DNA of 40,576 nucleotides from NCBI GenBank assembly GCA_031289615.1, contig JAITPD010000045.1, forward strand, positions 1 through 40,576, written 5' to 3'. The notes under the pieces were generated by a model, which was not told the origin of the DNA, did no database searches, and saw nothing but the letters and a program-made list of their open reading frames with translations. Position numbers and translations under genes: made by a program. Position 1 is the stretch's first letter. Every line of letters starts with the position of its first letter. The DNA comes from Lactobacillaceae bacterium. GTDB taxonomy: Bacteria > Bacillota > Bacilli > Lactobacillales > Lactobacillaceae. Positions 3,436-27,073 of the stretch are shown in pieces.

Positions 3436-3944
3436 TAATGCGTAGTGCTAGTAGTGAGTTATTCATTGCTTGATCAGCTTCGCAACTTGGTCATTTCTCA
3501 CTTGCAACATGCTCAGCTTCGCTAAAGATTCTTTACGTTTCGGATTAGCCCTGCACGATTCATGGCGAATGGCAAAATAATTTGCCAATTTCACGGCGCT
3601 AAAGCACGCGTGAAAAAACGTTCGCCTAGATTCGGCAAGGGCTGGTCATCCGACGACAGAATTGCTTCGCTGAACAACACAAGCACTTGCCCATTTCATT
3701 CAAAGCGTGGTGGATTGAGATGACGATAGTAGGTGATCAAGCGAGGTAGCGGCACCAATTTGACTAAATTTCGGTCTGCCGAAATTAAAAGTCAAATGGG
3801 ACCGTGTCGCCACTTACTATCTTTATCGAAAATACAACACGCAAGTGAGAAATGGCTAAGTTAGCAATTGGAACCAAATTGCAAAGCTGAGCATGCCACA
3901 AGCGAGAAATGGCCAAAACATTAAATTTCCAGCACTACGCATTA
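3436..3944. repeat. Palindromic intergenic repeat, copy B, with 14-bp perfect terminal inverted repeats
   Basis: The ends TAATGCGTAGTGCT (3436-3449) and AGCACTACGCATTA (3931-3944) are exact inverted repeats. Inside them a second inverted pair, GGTCATTTCTCACTTGC near 3490 and its partner near 3890-3915, flanks two palindromic modules. Module 2 is at about 3515-3685 and module 1 at about 3685-3865. Module 1 folds on itself: GATAGTAGGTG near 3728 pairs with CACTTACTATC near 3812, with an ATTTCGG...CCGAAAT tip. No protein is plausible here. The element fills the gap between the redox unit and the pilin unit. Confidence 0.85.
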
Positions 3945-22300: not shown

Positions 22301-23020
22301 TTAATGCATCAAACTGCCGACAATGAGTCCGAATGCTCCAATAAATGTGATTACACTGTTGTAAAGCAAGTGAGTCATCACGTTTTGCCAGATGTTACGC
22401 TTACTCAAGAAGAACATTAACTGGAAGAAGACACCCATCACAAAGTACAGCACCAAATTTGGTAGCGACCCATTGACGTTGTTGAAGTGGGCCAACGCAA
22501 ATACCAAGTTCGCAAAGATTGACATCACGATATACAAACTCTTTTTACCCGCAAATGGTGCGATCAAGGCATGGTGATAAATCATTTCTTCTGTGAAAGC
22601 TTGGAGCAATGGTACCAGCATGACCAATAATGTTGGCAGGCTCGTTTGCCAGAAATTGATTGACATGTACGCTTGAACTGGCAAAGTCGATCCGGCTGCT
22701 AAGAATTGGCTCGCCATTTTCGAGATTGGAACCAGCACGATGTACATAAACACCGTTGAACCTAGAGCGATTAAAATATTGCGACCCCAATGTTGCTTCC
22801 ATGCGCCCCAATCCTTTTTCAGAACGCCGTCGCTCCAATAAAATAGTGCTACGAAGAACAAGGAAATGGTGATGGCCAGTACGCGCAATGTCGCCGGCCA
22901 TGTTGAAAGACCGCTCTCTGTGCCTGCTGAGTTGCGCCCAAAGATTGGAATGAACACCAATGCTAACGGGATAACCAAGGCCGTTAGATACTTTACTACA
23001 CTTGCTATTTTCGTCTTCAT
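22301..23020 (-). CDS. CPBP-family intramembrane metalloprotease (Abi/Rce1-like)
   Basis: A 239-residue membrane protein with about seven helices. The three CPBP motifs are present: Glu144-Glu145-MIYH (motif 1), Phe174-ALA-His178 (motif 2) and His217-LLY-Asn221 (motif 3). Motif 1 normally reads EExxxR; here the last residue is His149. Relatives cleave proteins in the membrane, and some protect producers from their own bacteriocins. This gene lies 3.7 kb from a lanthipeptide synthetase gene, but a repeat element separates them and it has its own terminator, so an immunity role is speculative. GGGGAG precedes the ATG at 23018-23020. Confidence 0.82.
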   Translation of the reverse strand: MKTKIASVVKYLTALVIPLALVFIPIFGRNSAGTESGLSTWPATLRVLAITISLFFVALFYWSDGVLKKDWGAWKQHWGRNILIALGSTVFMYIVLVPISKMASQFLAAGSTLPVQAYMSINFWQTSLPTLLVMLVPLLQAFTEEMIYHHALIAPFAGKKSLYIVMSIFANLVFALAHFNNVNGSLPNLVLYFVMGVFFQLMFFLSKRNIWQNVMTHLLYNSVITFIGAFGLIVGSLMH

Positions 23021-23055
23021 GTTTTTTCTACTCCCCAAAATAATCTTTTCTACTA

Positions 23056-23384
23056 CGTTGTGCTAGCTATGCAGTATTGTTCTTTAGTTGATCAGCTTCG
23101 CTAAAGATTCTTTACGTTCGGATTTGCCCTGCACGATTCGGCAAGGGCAAATCCGACGACAGAATCGCTTCGCTGATCAACAAATATCCTGGTCATTTTA
23201 TCCAAGCGTGGTGGGTTGAGATGATGATAGTAGGTGAGCATGCGAGGTAGCGGCACCAATTTGACTAAATTTCGGCTTGCCGAAATTAAAAGTCAAATGG
23301 GACCGTGTCGCCACTTACTATCTTTATCGAAAAGTCACCACGCAAGTGAAAAATGACCAATGTAATACACAGCTAGCACTACAC
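23056..23384. repeat. Palindromic intergenic repeat, copy D, with terminal inverted repeats
   Basis: The left end GTTGTGCTAGCTATGCAG and the right end, read in reverse complement, GTAGTGCTAGCTGTGTATTA match imperfectly. Module 2 is shortened by an internal deletion (about 23090-23180), while module 1 (about 23190-23345) is full length and nearly identical to copy B. The element marks the left edge of the AT-rich lanthipeptide island. Confidence 0.8.
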
Positions 23385-23473
23385 ATTTTTTACTACTTTC
23401 ATATCTTACAATAAGTTCGCAAAAATTACATTGAATTTGTTTGTCGCTACTGACATAAATTAACATCAAACGA

Positions 23474-24727
23474 TCATGCCAATTTTCGTTCCTTTATCCT
23501 AACAAACTGAATATAAGCCAATAAAATCACCGAATAAACTGCCATACATATGAAACTAATCGCCACCCCAAACATACTTGCAATGGACATAAAGATTAGC
23601 GTTCCAATTGGCAACATAAAGCTCATTGTCGTATTTAACACGCCCAACGACAACGCAATATTATCTGGTAACGTATTGTTCATTAACCACGCGTTCAACT
23701 TTGGAACCGTATTCCCTTGGATAAATGCAATCATCATCAACAGCACCAAGATAAGGATTGAATTAATTTTTAATAATCCAAAAATAATCAGCAATAAAAT
23801 TAATAGCATTTGAATGAAAATAAGATTCGTAAACGTTTGCTTTTCAAACCATCTCAATGTCAAAATATTACCAATAATTTCTCCGCAAATAAAAGTGACA
23901 CTCATTAAAGTAATAGTTAGCGCCATATTTCCAATCTGCATATCCTTATTATTTGCAAAATACAGTATAAAAACTTGTTCGATCGCTACTCCAATCAGCC
24001 CTCCAACACTATAAATGGAGACATAAAATCCCAAAAGAGGCACGGCAAAAAGATTTTTAATAGCATTCCCAAATGTCATGTCATTTTTCTTATCTTCCAC
24101 AGTTTCTTTTATCTCATCTTGAATTTTAATTTCTTTAAGATGCCTAATCATCATGAAACTACTGAAAAATAGGGCCCCGTTTAAAATCGAAAAAACTGCA
24201 TAATTACTATTCATTAAACTAAGAAATAACGTTCCAATAAACTGACCTGACACTATGACAGTCTGAATAATTCCACTTTGTAACCCATTCAGTCTTTCAC
24301 GATCGTTTGATTCAATTATTTTTAAAGACATCGGGTACAATAACCCGACCGAGTATTGCCCTACCAGATCAGATGTTAAGTTGATGATAATTAATAGTCC
24401 GAACAAGACAATCGAAAATGATGAATGAATTGCTACAGCAGCGATGAGATACAACAATCCTTGGACCAGTTTAATGGTTTTTGCAATTCTGATTTTATTT
24501 TTAGAGCGATCCGCAAAATACCCCGTTAAAATATTTGCTAACGCTGGAATACTATTAAAAACTGACACAATCGTGATTGCCCAACTTTTAAAATCAGCGG
24601 GAGCCTCATTGGTCACATAGATGATAAAAACAAGATTAAATACGCTCATACCAGTAGATTCTAAAATATTAGATGCAAAAATCCACTTAAAATCGGTGGC
24701 CTTATATTTTTTTAAAATCGCTATCAT
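23474..24727 (-). CDS. MFS transporter of the lanthipeptide locus
   Basis: A 417-residue, 12-helix major facilitator protein. It resembles the MFS_3/drug-export type: NILTGYFADRSKNKIRIAKT between helices 2 and 3 is the loop motif, and DRERLNGLQSG lies mid-protein. Its start codon overlaps the stop of the synthetase gene (ATGA at 24724-24727), so the two are translationally coupled. Context makes it the likely exporter of, or self-protection against, the modified peptide (inference). No ABC exporter or leader protease is encoded nearby. It is AT-rich like the rest of the island. No clear terminator follows. Confidence 0.82.
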   Translation of the reverse strand: MIAILKKYKATDFKWIFASNILESTGMSVFNLVFIIYVTNEAPADFKSWAITIVSVFNSIPALANILTGYFADRSKNKIRIAKTIKLVQGLLYLIAAVAIHSSFSIVLFGLLIIINLTSDLVGQYSVGLLYPMSLKIIESNDRERLNGLQSGIIQTVIVSGQFIGTLFLSLMNSNYAVFSILNGALFFSSFMMIRHLKEIKIQDEIKETVEDKKNDMTFGNAIKNLFAVPLLGFYVSIYSVGGLIGVAIEQVFILYFANNKDMQIGNMALTITLMSVTFICGEIIGNILTLRWFEKQTFTNLIFIQMLLILLLIIFGLLKINSILILVLLMMIAFIQGNTVPKLNAWLMNNTLPDNIALSLGVLNTTMSFMLPIGTLIFMSIASMFGVAISFICMAVYSVILLAYIQFVRIKERKLA

Positions 24728-26691
24728 ATGGCGTGTTCCTCCTTGATCTTGAAATAATATTCAATAATTAAATATAGACCGTCGACTCCATATTTATGCC
24801 CAGATTTAATAGAATTGCTATAAAAATCAAAAAAACCAAACTTATTATCGCTATAGCTTATATAATTTAGTGATGTAATAATCTGAGTATTTGCAAGTTC
24901 TAGATACTTTACGTCTTGAAAAACTCTAAACAATTCAATGTTTGTAAAAGCAATACCTAATAAACCACTCCACAAGCTTGGCGATTTAGAAAAATTAAAC
25001 GACAACATATCTGCATATTTTTCTACAATATTTTTTTGTGTCAATCCACTTTCATACAGCTTAATTAAATATAAAACAGCCCCGGCTCCTCCATCTGAAA
25101 TATATGGAGATATTTTAGCCCTTTTATCTGGATTCATTTTCAAATATAATTTATCTTCAGATTCATCTCTAATCTCTAAATTTTTTAATACTTCGATAAA
25201 TTTGTTAGCATCCTTTACGGTCAATAAGTTAGATTTCAAATAATTATTAACTGATACTCCTATCTCTGTATACCCGTTATCATTAATATCTTGTTTGTCA
25301 TTGAATTTACGAAATTGATTTAAAATAAAAGCCCTTAATTCTTTGGCAGACTCATAATTTTTAAAAGGTAATTTTTTTAATTTATTTACTGCCACCTTAC
25401 CTTTTGGCTTTTTATCGCACAATAAATACGGTACAAATTCTGCGACATAAGGGTTAATTTCATTTATAAATAATAATTGATACAATTGAATAATTATCTG
25501 ATTTTTATTATTATGAGCTGCTAATACAAAGTTTAAATCCCCAATCATAAATAAAAACAGCATCCCAATTCTTCTAAAGTCTTGAACCTTAGCGTCCTTT
25601 GTTTTAAATTCATTAAGCCAATAACCGTGTGTTTTTGTATAATTCTTTGAGTTCCCCGAGTCGAATGAATCCAAATCTAAGAAATATATTTTATTATCAA
25701 TCCATGATAAGTTACTGTCTCTAATATCTAAATTTTTTATATCCGCTGAATGTATATTAACTACAGTTTTTAGTAACTCAACAAATAAATTTTTAATATT
25801 ATCTATTCTTAAATATTTCATCTTATTTGAAAGTATTGGTGAAACAGTCGATGGAAATCTAGATAAATCACCACCATCAAGATGCTCATATACAAAAAAG
25901 ACTGAATATACCTCTTCAACTATTTCAACCCCTTTTATTACATTTATTCCTCCATATTTTTCTAATGCTTTTGCATATTCGAATTCGTTATTCTTTAAGT
26001 CTGCCTTCAAAGCATGTTCACCAGAAAATATATACTTTCTAGCTTCCTTTATTACGTATTTCTTATCATTTATTTCAGCCAAGTAAGTATTACCAGCTGG
26101 TGTCTTCATAATTATGCCCAACAAATTGTATTTGGTTTGGATTTTAGTACCTGTTTGATATACCGAATCTTGAAAAGGGTCTGTAATCCACTCCGGTAAA
26201 TTAAATTCATTTTTTCTATCATCCACAAACTTTTCTCCCAGTGGACCAGTAATAGTATTCTCTTCCGTTCTAATGTTTAAACCATACCGATAATGTACTA
26301 CTTCAGATTCTTTATAAGAACGATCAGTTAAAATTTCTGGTCCATGAAATCCTCTAGTTAATTTTTCTAAACTTTGTAATATCTGTCTTGCTTCTTCTAA
26401 ATTACTAGGATATATAGTAATTAACTTACCAATCTGTGAACTAGAGGTTTTTATACTTAAAAAATCAAAAGCAATCTCAGAACTTCTTACGTATTTAAAA
26501 TTAATTCTTTTCTTAATCAAATATTCACCAACAATATTTAATAATACAGAAAAAGTTTCAAGCTTACTACTAACATGTATTTTCCAAAAATGTTGCGGAA
26601 CTTTATTCTCATTGAAAACAACATTAGTGAAAAATTCTGTTTGGATAATATCTACTGATTCGTCAAATTTTAAAATGTTATTATATATCAT
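24724..26691 (-). CDS. Class III lanthipeptide synthetase (LanKC-like), shortened cyclase
   Basis: A 655-residue three-part enzyme. An N-terminal lyase domain (about 1-165) carries Lys37-x-His39 (WKIHVSS), Lys66 (FKYVRS), GKLITIYP and Arg135 in VVHYRYG, all positions expected for the phosphothreonine-lyase type of LanL/LanKC. The kinase domain (about 185-420) has Lys215 (YVIKEAR), Asp322-x4-Asn327 (LDIRDSN) and the metal aspartate Asp339 (YFLDLD). The C-terminal cyclase-like part begins about 470 and keeps only segments such as SDGGAGAVLYLIKL (532-545) and SLWSGLLGIA (572-581). Class III cyclase domains are usually 350 residues or more, so this one is about half size. No zinc Cys-Cys-His set is present. 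The enzyme would phosphorylate and dehydrate Ser/Thr of the peptide encoded at 26812, then cyclise it onto Cys. It is divergent from that gene. Confidence 0.85.
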   Translation of the reverse strand: MIYNNILKFDESVDIIQTEFFTNVVFNENKVPQHFWKIHVSSKLETFSVLLNIVGEYLIKKRINFKYVRSSEIAFDFLSIKTSSSQIGKLITIYPSNLEEARQILQSLEKLTRGFHGPEILTDRSYKESEVVHYRYGLNIRTEENTITGPLGEKFVDDRKNEFNLPEWITDPFQDSVYQTGTKIQTKYNLLGIIMKTPAGNTYLAEINDKKYVIKEARKYIFSGEHALKADLKNNEFEYAKALEKYGGINVIKGVEIVEEVYSVFFVYEHLDGGDLSRFPSTVSPILSNKMKYLRIDNIKNLFVELLKTVVNIHSADIKNLDIRDSNLSWIDNKIYFLDLDSFDSGNSKNYTKTHGYWLNEFKTKDAKVQDFRRIGMLFLFMIGDLNFVLAAHNNKNQIIIQLYQLLFINEINPYVAEFVPYLLCDKKPKGKVAVNKLKKLPFKNYESAKELRAFILNQFRKFNDKQDINDNGYTEIGVSVNNYLKSNLLTVKDANKFIEVLKNLEIRDESEDKLYLKMNPDKRAKISPYISDGGAGAVLYLIKLYESGLTQKNIVEKYADMLSFNFSKSPSLWSGLLGIAFTNIELFRVFQDVKYLELANTQIITSLNYISYSDNKFGFFDFYSNSIKSGHKYGVDGLYLIIEYYFKIKEEHAI

Positions 26692-26751
26692 ATTTCACAC
26701 CCCATTTTTCTGTTTTTATAATCATACTATAATCGTTCTATAATTAAAAGC

Positions 26752-26780
26752 TTGACGTTTTCTCATTTATGTATTATTAT
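26752..26780 (+). promoter_or_regulatory. Promoter of the lanthipeptide precursor gene
   Basis: TTGACG (26752-26757), exactly 17 bases, TATTAT (26775-26780), about 30 bases before the ATG. This is one of the best sigma-A matches in the window. On the opposite strand, the TATAGT/TATGAT boxes in 26720-26735 may serve the synthetase gene. Confidence 0.8.
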
Positions 26781-26811
26781 ATAAATAATTTAGAAATGGA
26801 GGAATTATATT

Positions 26812-26973
26812 ATGACAAATGCTACTTTGGCTATTAAGCCATCTATTGAGGTTATTTCTTTGAACGCACTCCCTTTTATTCAAAACGACGAGTATTCATA
26901 TACTTCTGACTCACCCTTTACTATGGCAGAAGGAAGTTGGGTCTGCAGTAACAAACTAACAGTATCTTGTTAA
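26812..26973 (+). CDS. Class III lanthipeptide precursor peptide (LanA-like, 53 aa)
   Basis: A short gene with GGAGG 9 bases before the ATG. The leader (about 1-27) contains the hydrophobic stretch IEVISLNALPFI, possibly the helix bound by the synthetase. The tail from about residue 28 holds Ser29, Thr31, Ser32, Ser34, Thr37, Ser42, Ser46, Thr50 and Ser52, with only two cysteines, Cys45 and Cys53, the last residue. Ser/Thr-x2-Ser/Thr pairs (29/32, 31/34, 34/37) before Cys45 recall the class III labionin pattern, though the gap to Cys45 is longer than usual. Two thioether rings are possible. The product is not one I recognise. The gene is divergent from the LanKC gene and is followed by a strong terminator. 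Confidence 0.82.
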   Translation: MTNATLAIKPSIEVISLNALPFIQNDEYSYTSDSPFTMAEGSWVCSNKLTVSC

Positions 26974-26993: not shown

Positions 26994-27042
26994 AAAAGGC
27001 AGATATTATTTGATTTTAGCAATCAAATAATATCTGCCTTTT
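26994..27042. terminator. Bidirectional terminator, perfect 22-bp stem
   Basis: 26994-27015 and 27021-27042 are exact inverted repeats around a 5-base loop, with A and T runs on both sides. It ends the precursor gene on the plus strand and the glucuronate cluster on the minus strand. Confidence 0.92.
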
Positions 27043-27073
27043 ATAGTTGTTTTATAATTAACAATCACACATC

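Follow-up and report, generated by a model that had tools for sequence, protein, structure and literature searches.

How small can a class III-type lanthipeptide pathway be? The question is raised by three adjoining genes on a contig of a Lactobacillaceae bacterium (JAITPD010000045.1, assembly GCA_031289615.1), analyzed over its whole stretch of 40,576 nucleotides, which is called the window here. A gene for a LanKC-type synthetase, one for an exporter of the major facilitator superfamily (MFS) and, facing both, one for a small precursor peptide had been described there as a minimal class III lanthipeptide locus, and all three open reading frames (ORFs) were found as claimed, in support of a minimal locus (Table 1). 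We consider a very small lanthipeptide the likely product of the locus, with rings Ser42–Cys45 and Thr50–Cys53 formed by the synthetase and export by the MFS protein. The genes, their coupling, the intact lyase and kinase residues, and a conserved (S/T)xxC core are present in the DNA itself; read in this way, the set is real and probably a working variant of class III-type biosynthesis.

The synthetase matched the Pfam lyase profile RamC_N (E 2.1e-38, 132.2 bits; cut-off 27) and the cyclase profile LANC_like (25.8 bits; cut-off 23.2), the latter only over profile positions 184–306 of 350. All eight catalytic residues named in the preliminary description were present, K37, H39, K66, and R135 in an N-terminal RamC/OspF-type lyase and K215, D322, N327, and D339 in a central Ser/Thr kinase domain. 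They were invariant in alignment A2, which comprises six rows (the window synthetase and five relatives, two of them near-identical). The best fold matches were ThurKC, CuvL, SalKC, and PneKC. For the class IV LanL profile NF038150, a score of 176.6 bits was obtained (cut-off 650), and no Cys occurs past residue 425 of the window synthetase, nor anywhere in its relative L066 (labels of this form designate the loci compared and their proteins). Judged by its sequence, the enzyme is a divergent class III-like lanthipeptide synthetase with a shortened cyclase end.

A tree of 47 LanKC proteins, based on the lyase and kinase part, placed the window synthetase in a clade of 11 (Shimodaira-Hasegawa-like approximate likelihood ratio test, 98), together with L054 and L066 from Lactobacillaceae, which are its nearest relatives on the tree, three Lactococcus rows, and five streptococcal-type rows. 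In these 11 proteins, 290–331 residues (median 316) follow the aligned Asp of the DFG motif, compared to 338–532 (median 485.5) in 28 proteins linked to ATP-binding cassette (ABC) exporters. MFS-labelled proteins outside the clade have 314 (L055), 434 (L004), and 487 (L205) residues after this position. The window enzyme, with 316 residues, is thus about 170 shorter than the ABC-type median. This shortness and the lack of Cys in the cyclase region favor another product, namely a linear peptide that is dehydrated or phosphorylated by a working kinase and lyase, while the shortened cyclase fails to close rings and any thioethers arise spontaneously, if at all. Two further cases point in the same direction: in L052/L053 the LanKC is PNA-style, lacks a cyclase altogether, and extends 114 residues past the DFG Asp, and in L045 a lyase-only protein is coupled to an MFS gene, with a TxxC precursor at its side. 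On the other hand, the spacing between Cys and Thr/Ser is fixed in the listed precursors though the neighboring residues vary, and in known class III enzymes the LanC-like domain is competent without zinc. On balance, we regard a linear product as unlikely and prefer ring closure by the shortened end.

The shortened cyclase, together with the low G+C content, could also be a sign of decay, the locus being an AT-rich remnant of an acquired cluster with an eroding cyclase and no product; indeed, six relatives (L196, L201, L204, L074, L065, and L061) are visibly broken. However, the window ORFs are intact, the K/H/K/R and kinase residues are kept, and the short form is common to 11 rows of a supported clade and is therefore not a private deletion. 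A decayed locus appears very improbable to us, and a functional synthetase remains our preferred reading.

The predicted exporter matched MFS_1 over residues 17–375 of 417 (55.8 bits; cut-off 33.4); no PDB sequence relative was found at E 0.1. The ATGA overlap said to couple its gene to the synthetase gene was seen at 24724–24727, and the pairing recurs in relatives: an MFS gene adjoins LanKC on the same strand at 19 distinct loci, including the window and a second locus of the same genome. Six of these 19 have a split or frameshifted LanKC (L065, L074, L089, L196, L201, and L204), and that of L045 consists of the lyase alone. Among the 11 clade members, the pairing was seen in nine. It was not seen in L054, where the contig ends just past the LanKC gene, and in L087 (Streptococcus sciuri), where MFS-like pieces lie on the other strand only and a 627-residue ORF adjoins LanKC.

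Related enzymes are accompanied by ORFs of ~27–57 residues that carry, close to their C-terminal end, a (Ser/Thr)-x-x-Cys core such as ITFMC (pMRC01), ITFGC (L078, L065), VTFGC (L192), ATYKC (L193), LTYRC (L089), and ARSTMC (L004). A precursor rule (ATG-started ORF of 25–60 residues with a site resembling a ribosome-binding site (RBS) and the core motif, at most 600 bp upstream, on both strands) was satisfied at 18 of 23 loci, the window included, and in 12 of 828 control windows from the same loci; the facing 53-codon precursor proposed earlier thus has counterparts beside related loci. The window peptide carries two motifs (SWVC and TVSC) and no classical SxxSx(2-5)C pattern, and a leader motif L..L[PS] is found in 11 of the 23 listed precursors. 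The double form [ST]xxC-x(3,4)-[ST]xxC is rare, being found in 3 of 658 small ORFs with an RBS-like site that were taken as unrelated; these three are the L194 precursor with an earlier start, L058, and L092, which comes from a LanKC locus. Beside the window (SWVC SNKL TVSC), double-motif precursors are found in L054 (TGGC PTV TIHC), L066 (TNNC TIN TASC), and L194 (SPGC KIT TKSC). Comparison of pMRC01 with L090 gave 15 identical, 4 synonymous, and 1 non-synonymous leader codons and 2 identical, 3 synonymous, and 7 non-synonymous core codons, with Thr24 and Cys27 kept. For L193/L165, the core has 1 non-synonymous and 4 synonymous changes, and Thr and Cys are kept as well.

It might be argued that LanKC acts on another peptide and that the 53-codon ORF does not encode its substrate, as the peptide has no Pfam or NCBIfam match and its gene is transcribed away from LanKC, whereas the precursor genes of Lactococcus and streptococci run in the same direction as LanKC. 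Yet divergent precursors are also found at L045, L054, L055, and L065, and the two-motif arrangement matches that beside the nearest synthetases. We hold another substrate to be the least probable of the readings considered, and the 53-residue peptide is taken as the substrate below. As a separate observation, the ABC-linked locus L058 has its precursor on the strand opposite to LanKC, 257 bases upstream, with a core SKFCSNKFTIFC that is identical to that of the window, SWVCSNKLTVSC, at 7 of 12 positions; despite the alike cores, the two enzymes are on different tree branches.

Several results weigh against a ring-forming, MFS-exported product. The LanKC assignment of the preliminary description stood with respect to RamC_N and, over part of the profile, LANC_like, and fell short with Pkinase (26.7 bits; cut-off 31.7) and with the NCBIfam class III LanKC equivalog NF038151 (202.7 bits; cut-off 575). 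The predicted model of the cyclase end is poor (predicted local distance difference test 37–56 in blocks 441–530). The precursor rule was devised after the ORFs had been viewed, and it failed at five of the 23 loci: in L055 and L201 a TxxC ORF appears under looser rules, L204 has TIVIC, and in L205 and L046 no listed ORF has the (S/T)xxC spacing. A single (S/T)xxC occurs in the last 20 residues of 96 of the 658 small ORFs mentioned above, and such cores also accompany ABC exporters (L058, L063, and L200). The leader of L193/L165, with 2 non-synonymous and 0 synonymous changes, leans in the opposite direction to that of pMRC01 and L090. Finally, the MFS label changes at least four times on the LanKC tree; the pairing is hence not one ancestral trait and was gained or lost several times.

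For the chemistry, that is dehydration, ring pattern, leader removal, and export, as well as for the role of the product, we infer the following course. The LanKC-type enzyme would bind the precursor leader, probably around LNALP, its kinase domain would phosphorylate Ser/Thr of the core, and the OspF/RamC-type lyase domain would eliminate the phosphate. The shortened cyclase-like end would then close the thioether rings Ser42–Cys45 and Thr50–Cys53. Since no Ser/Thr lies three residues before Ser42 or Thr50, there is no canonical labionin motif and two simple rings, each a (methyl)lanthionine of four residues, are expected. An unclustered host peptidase encoded outside the locus would cut off the leader, for which the accessible text of PMC10885120 provides a precedent in other class III systems. 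The MFS protein would export the product by proton exchange and, because no immunity gene was seen in the set, in agreement with the preliminary description, this efflux may double as self-protection.

The occurrence of the set proved patchy. A protein relative was found in one of 28 genomes of the genus, the own genome, and 33 of the 397 genomes sampled in the family had a RamC_N match. Among 72,556 plasmid records, 76 had a protein match, 14 of them over 80% or more of the query, with identities lower than 60% throughout; the best were Lactococcus plasmids, pMRC01 among them. Nucleotide relatives of the set were not found in plasmids, and tblastn revealed no relative in phage records. A first scan of genome contigs with the window protein alone confirmed none of 28 stretches. 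In viral contigs, one distant relative (25% identity), its neighbor being read as ABC-type, was found among 40 stretches. Two sets of matches were set aside. In an order-wide search with alignment A2, 313 of 395 genomes matched, but the many matches near E 1e-8 over positions 177–351 were read as ordinary Ser/Thr kinases and left unused. A third match in the own genome (C3, E 8.9e-4) lies inside a 532-residue ORF read as an ABC transporter and was taken as chance.

Three relatives deserve separate mention. Two goat-gut contigs of metagenome-assembled genomes labelled Clostridia (L084 and L085) carry pMRC01-like LanKC and MFS ORFs, and the L084 precursor is identical to that of pMRC01; the label possibly reflects mis-binning or transfer. 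In Mycoplasmopsis gallopavonis (L080 3749–6833), a 687-residue LanKC-type ORF and an ITFYC precursor are flanked on either side by an IS3 gene, and the ORF has neither an MFS nor an ABC match next to it. In L045 (5952–7843), the RamC_N protein (1.6e-40) has 214 residues and no kinase or cyclase part, its gene overlaps the MFS gene by 4 nt, and a TxxC precursor faces both; it is the one RamC_N match in the whole genome.

The second locus of the own genome is found on contig C40 (L004 4000–7676, G000:C40), where a 781-residue LanKC-type ORF overlaps an MFS gene. Its G+C content is 29–30%, compared to 39–46% around it, and a 30-codon ORF upstream, MDILLALNKLSKDNNVDVIVEARSTMCYEN, encodes a precursor with an STMC core. 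In the 47-protein tree the C40 synthetase groups with other, mostly ABC-linked enzymes and hence on a different branch, so that the genome holds two LanKC-MFS sets of different descent. The closest parallel of the C40 locus is L074, whose precursor ends with ARSTKCPTKEGD.

Regarding the role of the product, which may be antimicrobial or signalling, Rgg-like genes were found at 10 of 23 loci, all of Streptococcaceae type, no more than 1.4 kb from LanKC and on its strand. The five query Rggs had been taken from the same loci that were scored. The eight Lactobacillaceae loci of the set, the window among them, had none, save two weak matches in L046, and some ABC-type loci also have an Rgg-like gene (L198 on the same strand; L044, L081, and L200 on the opposite strand). 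The proximity of Rgg to LanKC is at most a hint. A minimal thioether family, in which a short LanKC makes one or two four-residue (methyl)lanthionine rings, export is by an MFS protein, and the neighboring Rgg-type regulator senses the product in Streptococcaceae, is a speculative proposal that we would not expect to hold as a whole. If true, the sensed product would be a thioether analog of the peptide signals that are closed by a lactone or thiolactone.

The coordinates of the locus are compiled in Table 1. The set is richer in A+T than both flanks, as had been stated: the G+C content is 28.0% for LanKC, 33.5% for the MFS gene, and 37.0% for the peptide gene, and 42–44% in the nearest outside 1-kb windows. 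The terminator was confirmed as well. Of the promoter and GGAGG site attributed to the precursor gene, both sequences are there, but promoter-like matches as a class (26 across the region compared to 22.4 ± 4.6 in shuffles) are not above chance. A direct repeat of 20 nt (85%) at 26728–26747 and 27042–27061 brackets the precursor gene and may represent operators or chance in AT-rich DNA. Within the window, Rfam gave no match, and PADLOC gave weak kinase-type matches only.

Table 1. Features of the putative lanthipeptide locus (positions in the window)
Feature	Position	Strand	Remarks
LanKC-type synthetase gene	24724-26691	-	655-codon ORF; lyase ~18-174, kinase ~185-430, shortened LanC-like end ~494-612
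MFS exporter gene	23474-24727	-	417-codon ORF; MFS_1 E 4.5e-15; ATGA (4-nt) overlap with synthetase gene
Precursor gene	26812-26973	+	53-codon ORF facing the other two; peptide MTNATLAIKPSIEVISLNALPFIQNDEYSYTSDSPFTMAEGSWVCSNKLTVSC
Leader motif LNALP	26860-26874	+	Sequence comparison; LNxLP in several relatives
Predicted ring 1, SWVC (Ser42-Cys45)	26935-26946	+	Arrangement [ST]xxC-x3/4-[ST]xxC also in L054, L066, L194
Predicted ring 2, TVSC (Thr50-Cys53), C-terminal	26959-26970	+	Arrangement as in L054, L066, L194
Promoter-like TTGACG-17-TATTAT of precursor gene	26752-26780	+	10/12 consensus matches
Ribosome-binding site GGAGG	26798-26802	+	9 nt 5' of precursor ATG
Intrinsic terminator	26994-27042	+	Perfect 22-bp stem, 5-nt loop, T-rich tail
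Dispersed repeat	~23051-23388		Low-coordinate edge; outside the system

Acquisition as a unit, starting next to a mobile-looking repeat, had been suggested. The repeat was rejected as a boundary or island mark because its copies are dispersed genome-wide: 40 of 239 candidate places in the own 2.0-Mb genome were scored, and 40 long matches, the window's own included, were obtained. The long copies are 79–90% identical to the window copy, 29 fetched copies show a two-module element, a second window copy lies at 3510–3854, and outside the own genome two short matches were found, in G022 only, among the 28 genomes of the genus. Composition and patchiness are the two lines of support for a lateral gain of the set. 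Directly past the repeat, a CAAX/CPBP protease gene (22301–23038) has a host-like G+C content of 44.6%, and blastp at E 0.01 revealed no relative of it among the other loci of the comparison. On these grounds it was rejected as an immunity or maturation gene of the set, and the statement that the AT-rich set has no protease stands. In the 28 genus genomes, the flanking GntR gene had matches in 16 (at most 32% identity outside the own genome) and the CPBP gene in seven (at best 43% identity), and no synteny was seen for either.

Compared to known systems, the window enzyme shares the lyase-kinase-LanC-like order and the catalytic residues with ThurKC, PneKC, SalKC, CuvL, and CurKC, which are among its best fold matches and PDB profile matches, but these have ~850–870 residues, compared to 655 in the window enzyme, whose C-terminal part is shortened and whose score is below the NCBIfam class III cut-off. 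Classical class III precursors, as described in the accessible text of PMC7268733 and PMC11251773, form labionin/lanthionine from an SxxSx(2-5)C core behind an LxLQ leader. Like these, the window precursor is a small leader-core peptide adjoining a LanKC gene; it differs in that SWVC and TVSC lack a Ser/Thr three residues earlier and in its LNALP leader. The same text of PMC11251773 reports 46 single-cysteine class III precursors without a labionin motif, which may include one-ring (S/T)xxC members, a fit by description and not by sequence, and it mentions neither an MFS partner nor a short cyclase nor a form with two rings for them. As these precursors and class III clusters in Lactobacillus, with LanKC lacking the zinc residues (PMC10673953, accessible text), are already published, the novelty is limited.

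If our reading is true, class III-type making exists in a form smaller than that of the enzymes of known structure, with ~300 residues after the kinase motif, a four-residue ring, and a proton-driven pump replacing the ABC exporter, and the shortened cyclase would offer a natural experiment on the extent of LanC-like domain needed to close a ring. The mining rule in the accessible text of PMC7268733 combines LANC_like and Pkinase and would probably miss such proteins, since at E 0.001 LANC_like matched none of the clade members L194, L066, and L054, and a Pkinase match was likewise missing from the first two. In the literature searched, with subscription papers thinly covered, no description of a LanKC-MFS locus with TxxC precursors was found, which is a weak negative. 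The Lactococcus plasmid loci would be convenient experimental material. On pMRC01 (NC_001949.1, L076 5846–9059) the order is Rgg, TxxC precursor, LanKC, and MFS, and LanKC and MFS are annotated as 'hypothetical protein' and 'MFS transporter'. Although this locus has one motif only, an Rgg-family gene upstream, and 28% identity, it resembles the window in its 614-residue LanKC-type protein, an MFS gene with a 4-nt overlap, and a 32-residue TxxC precursor.

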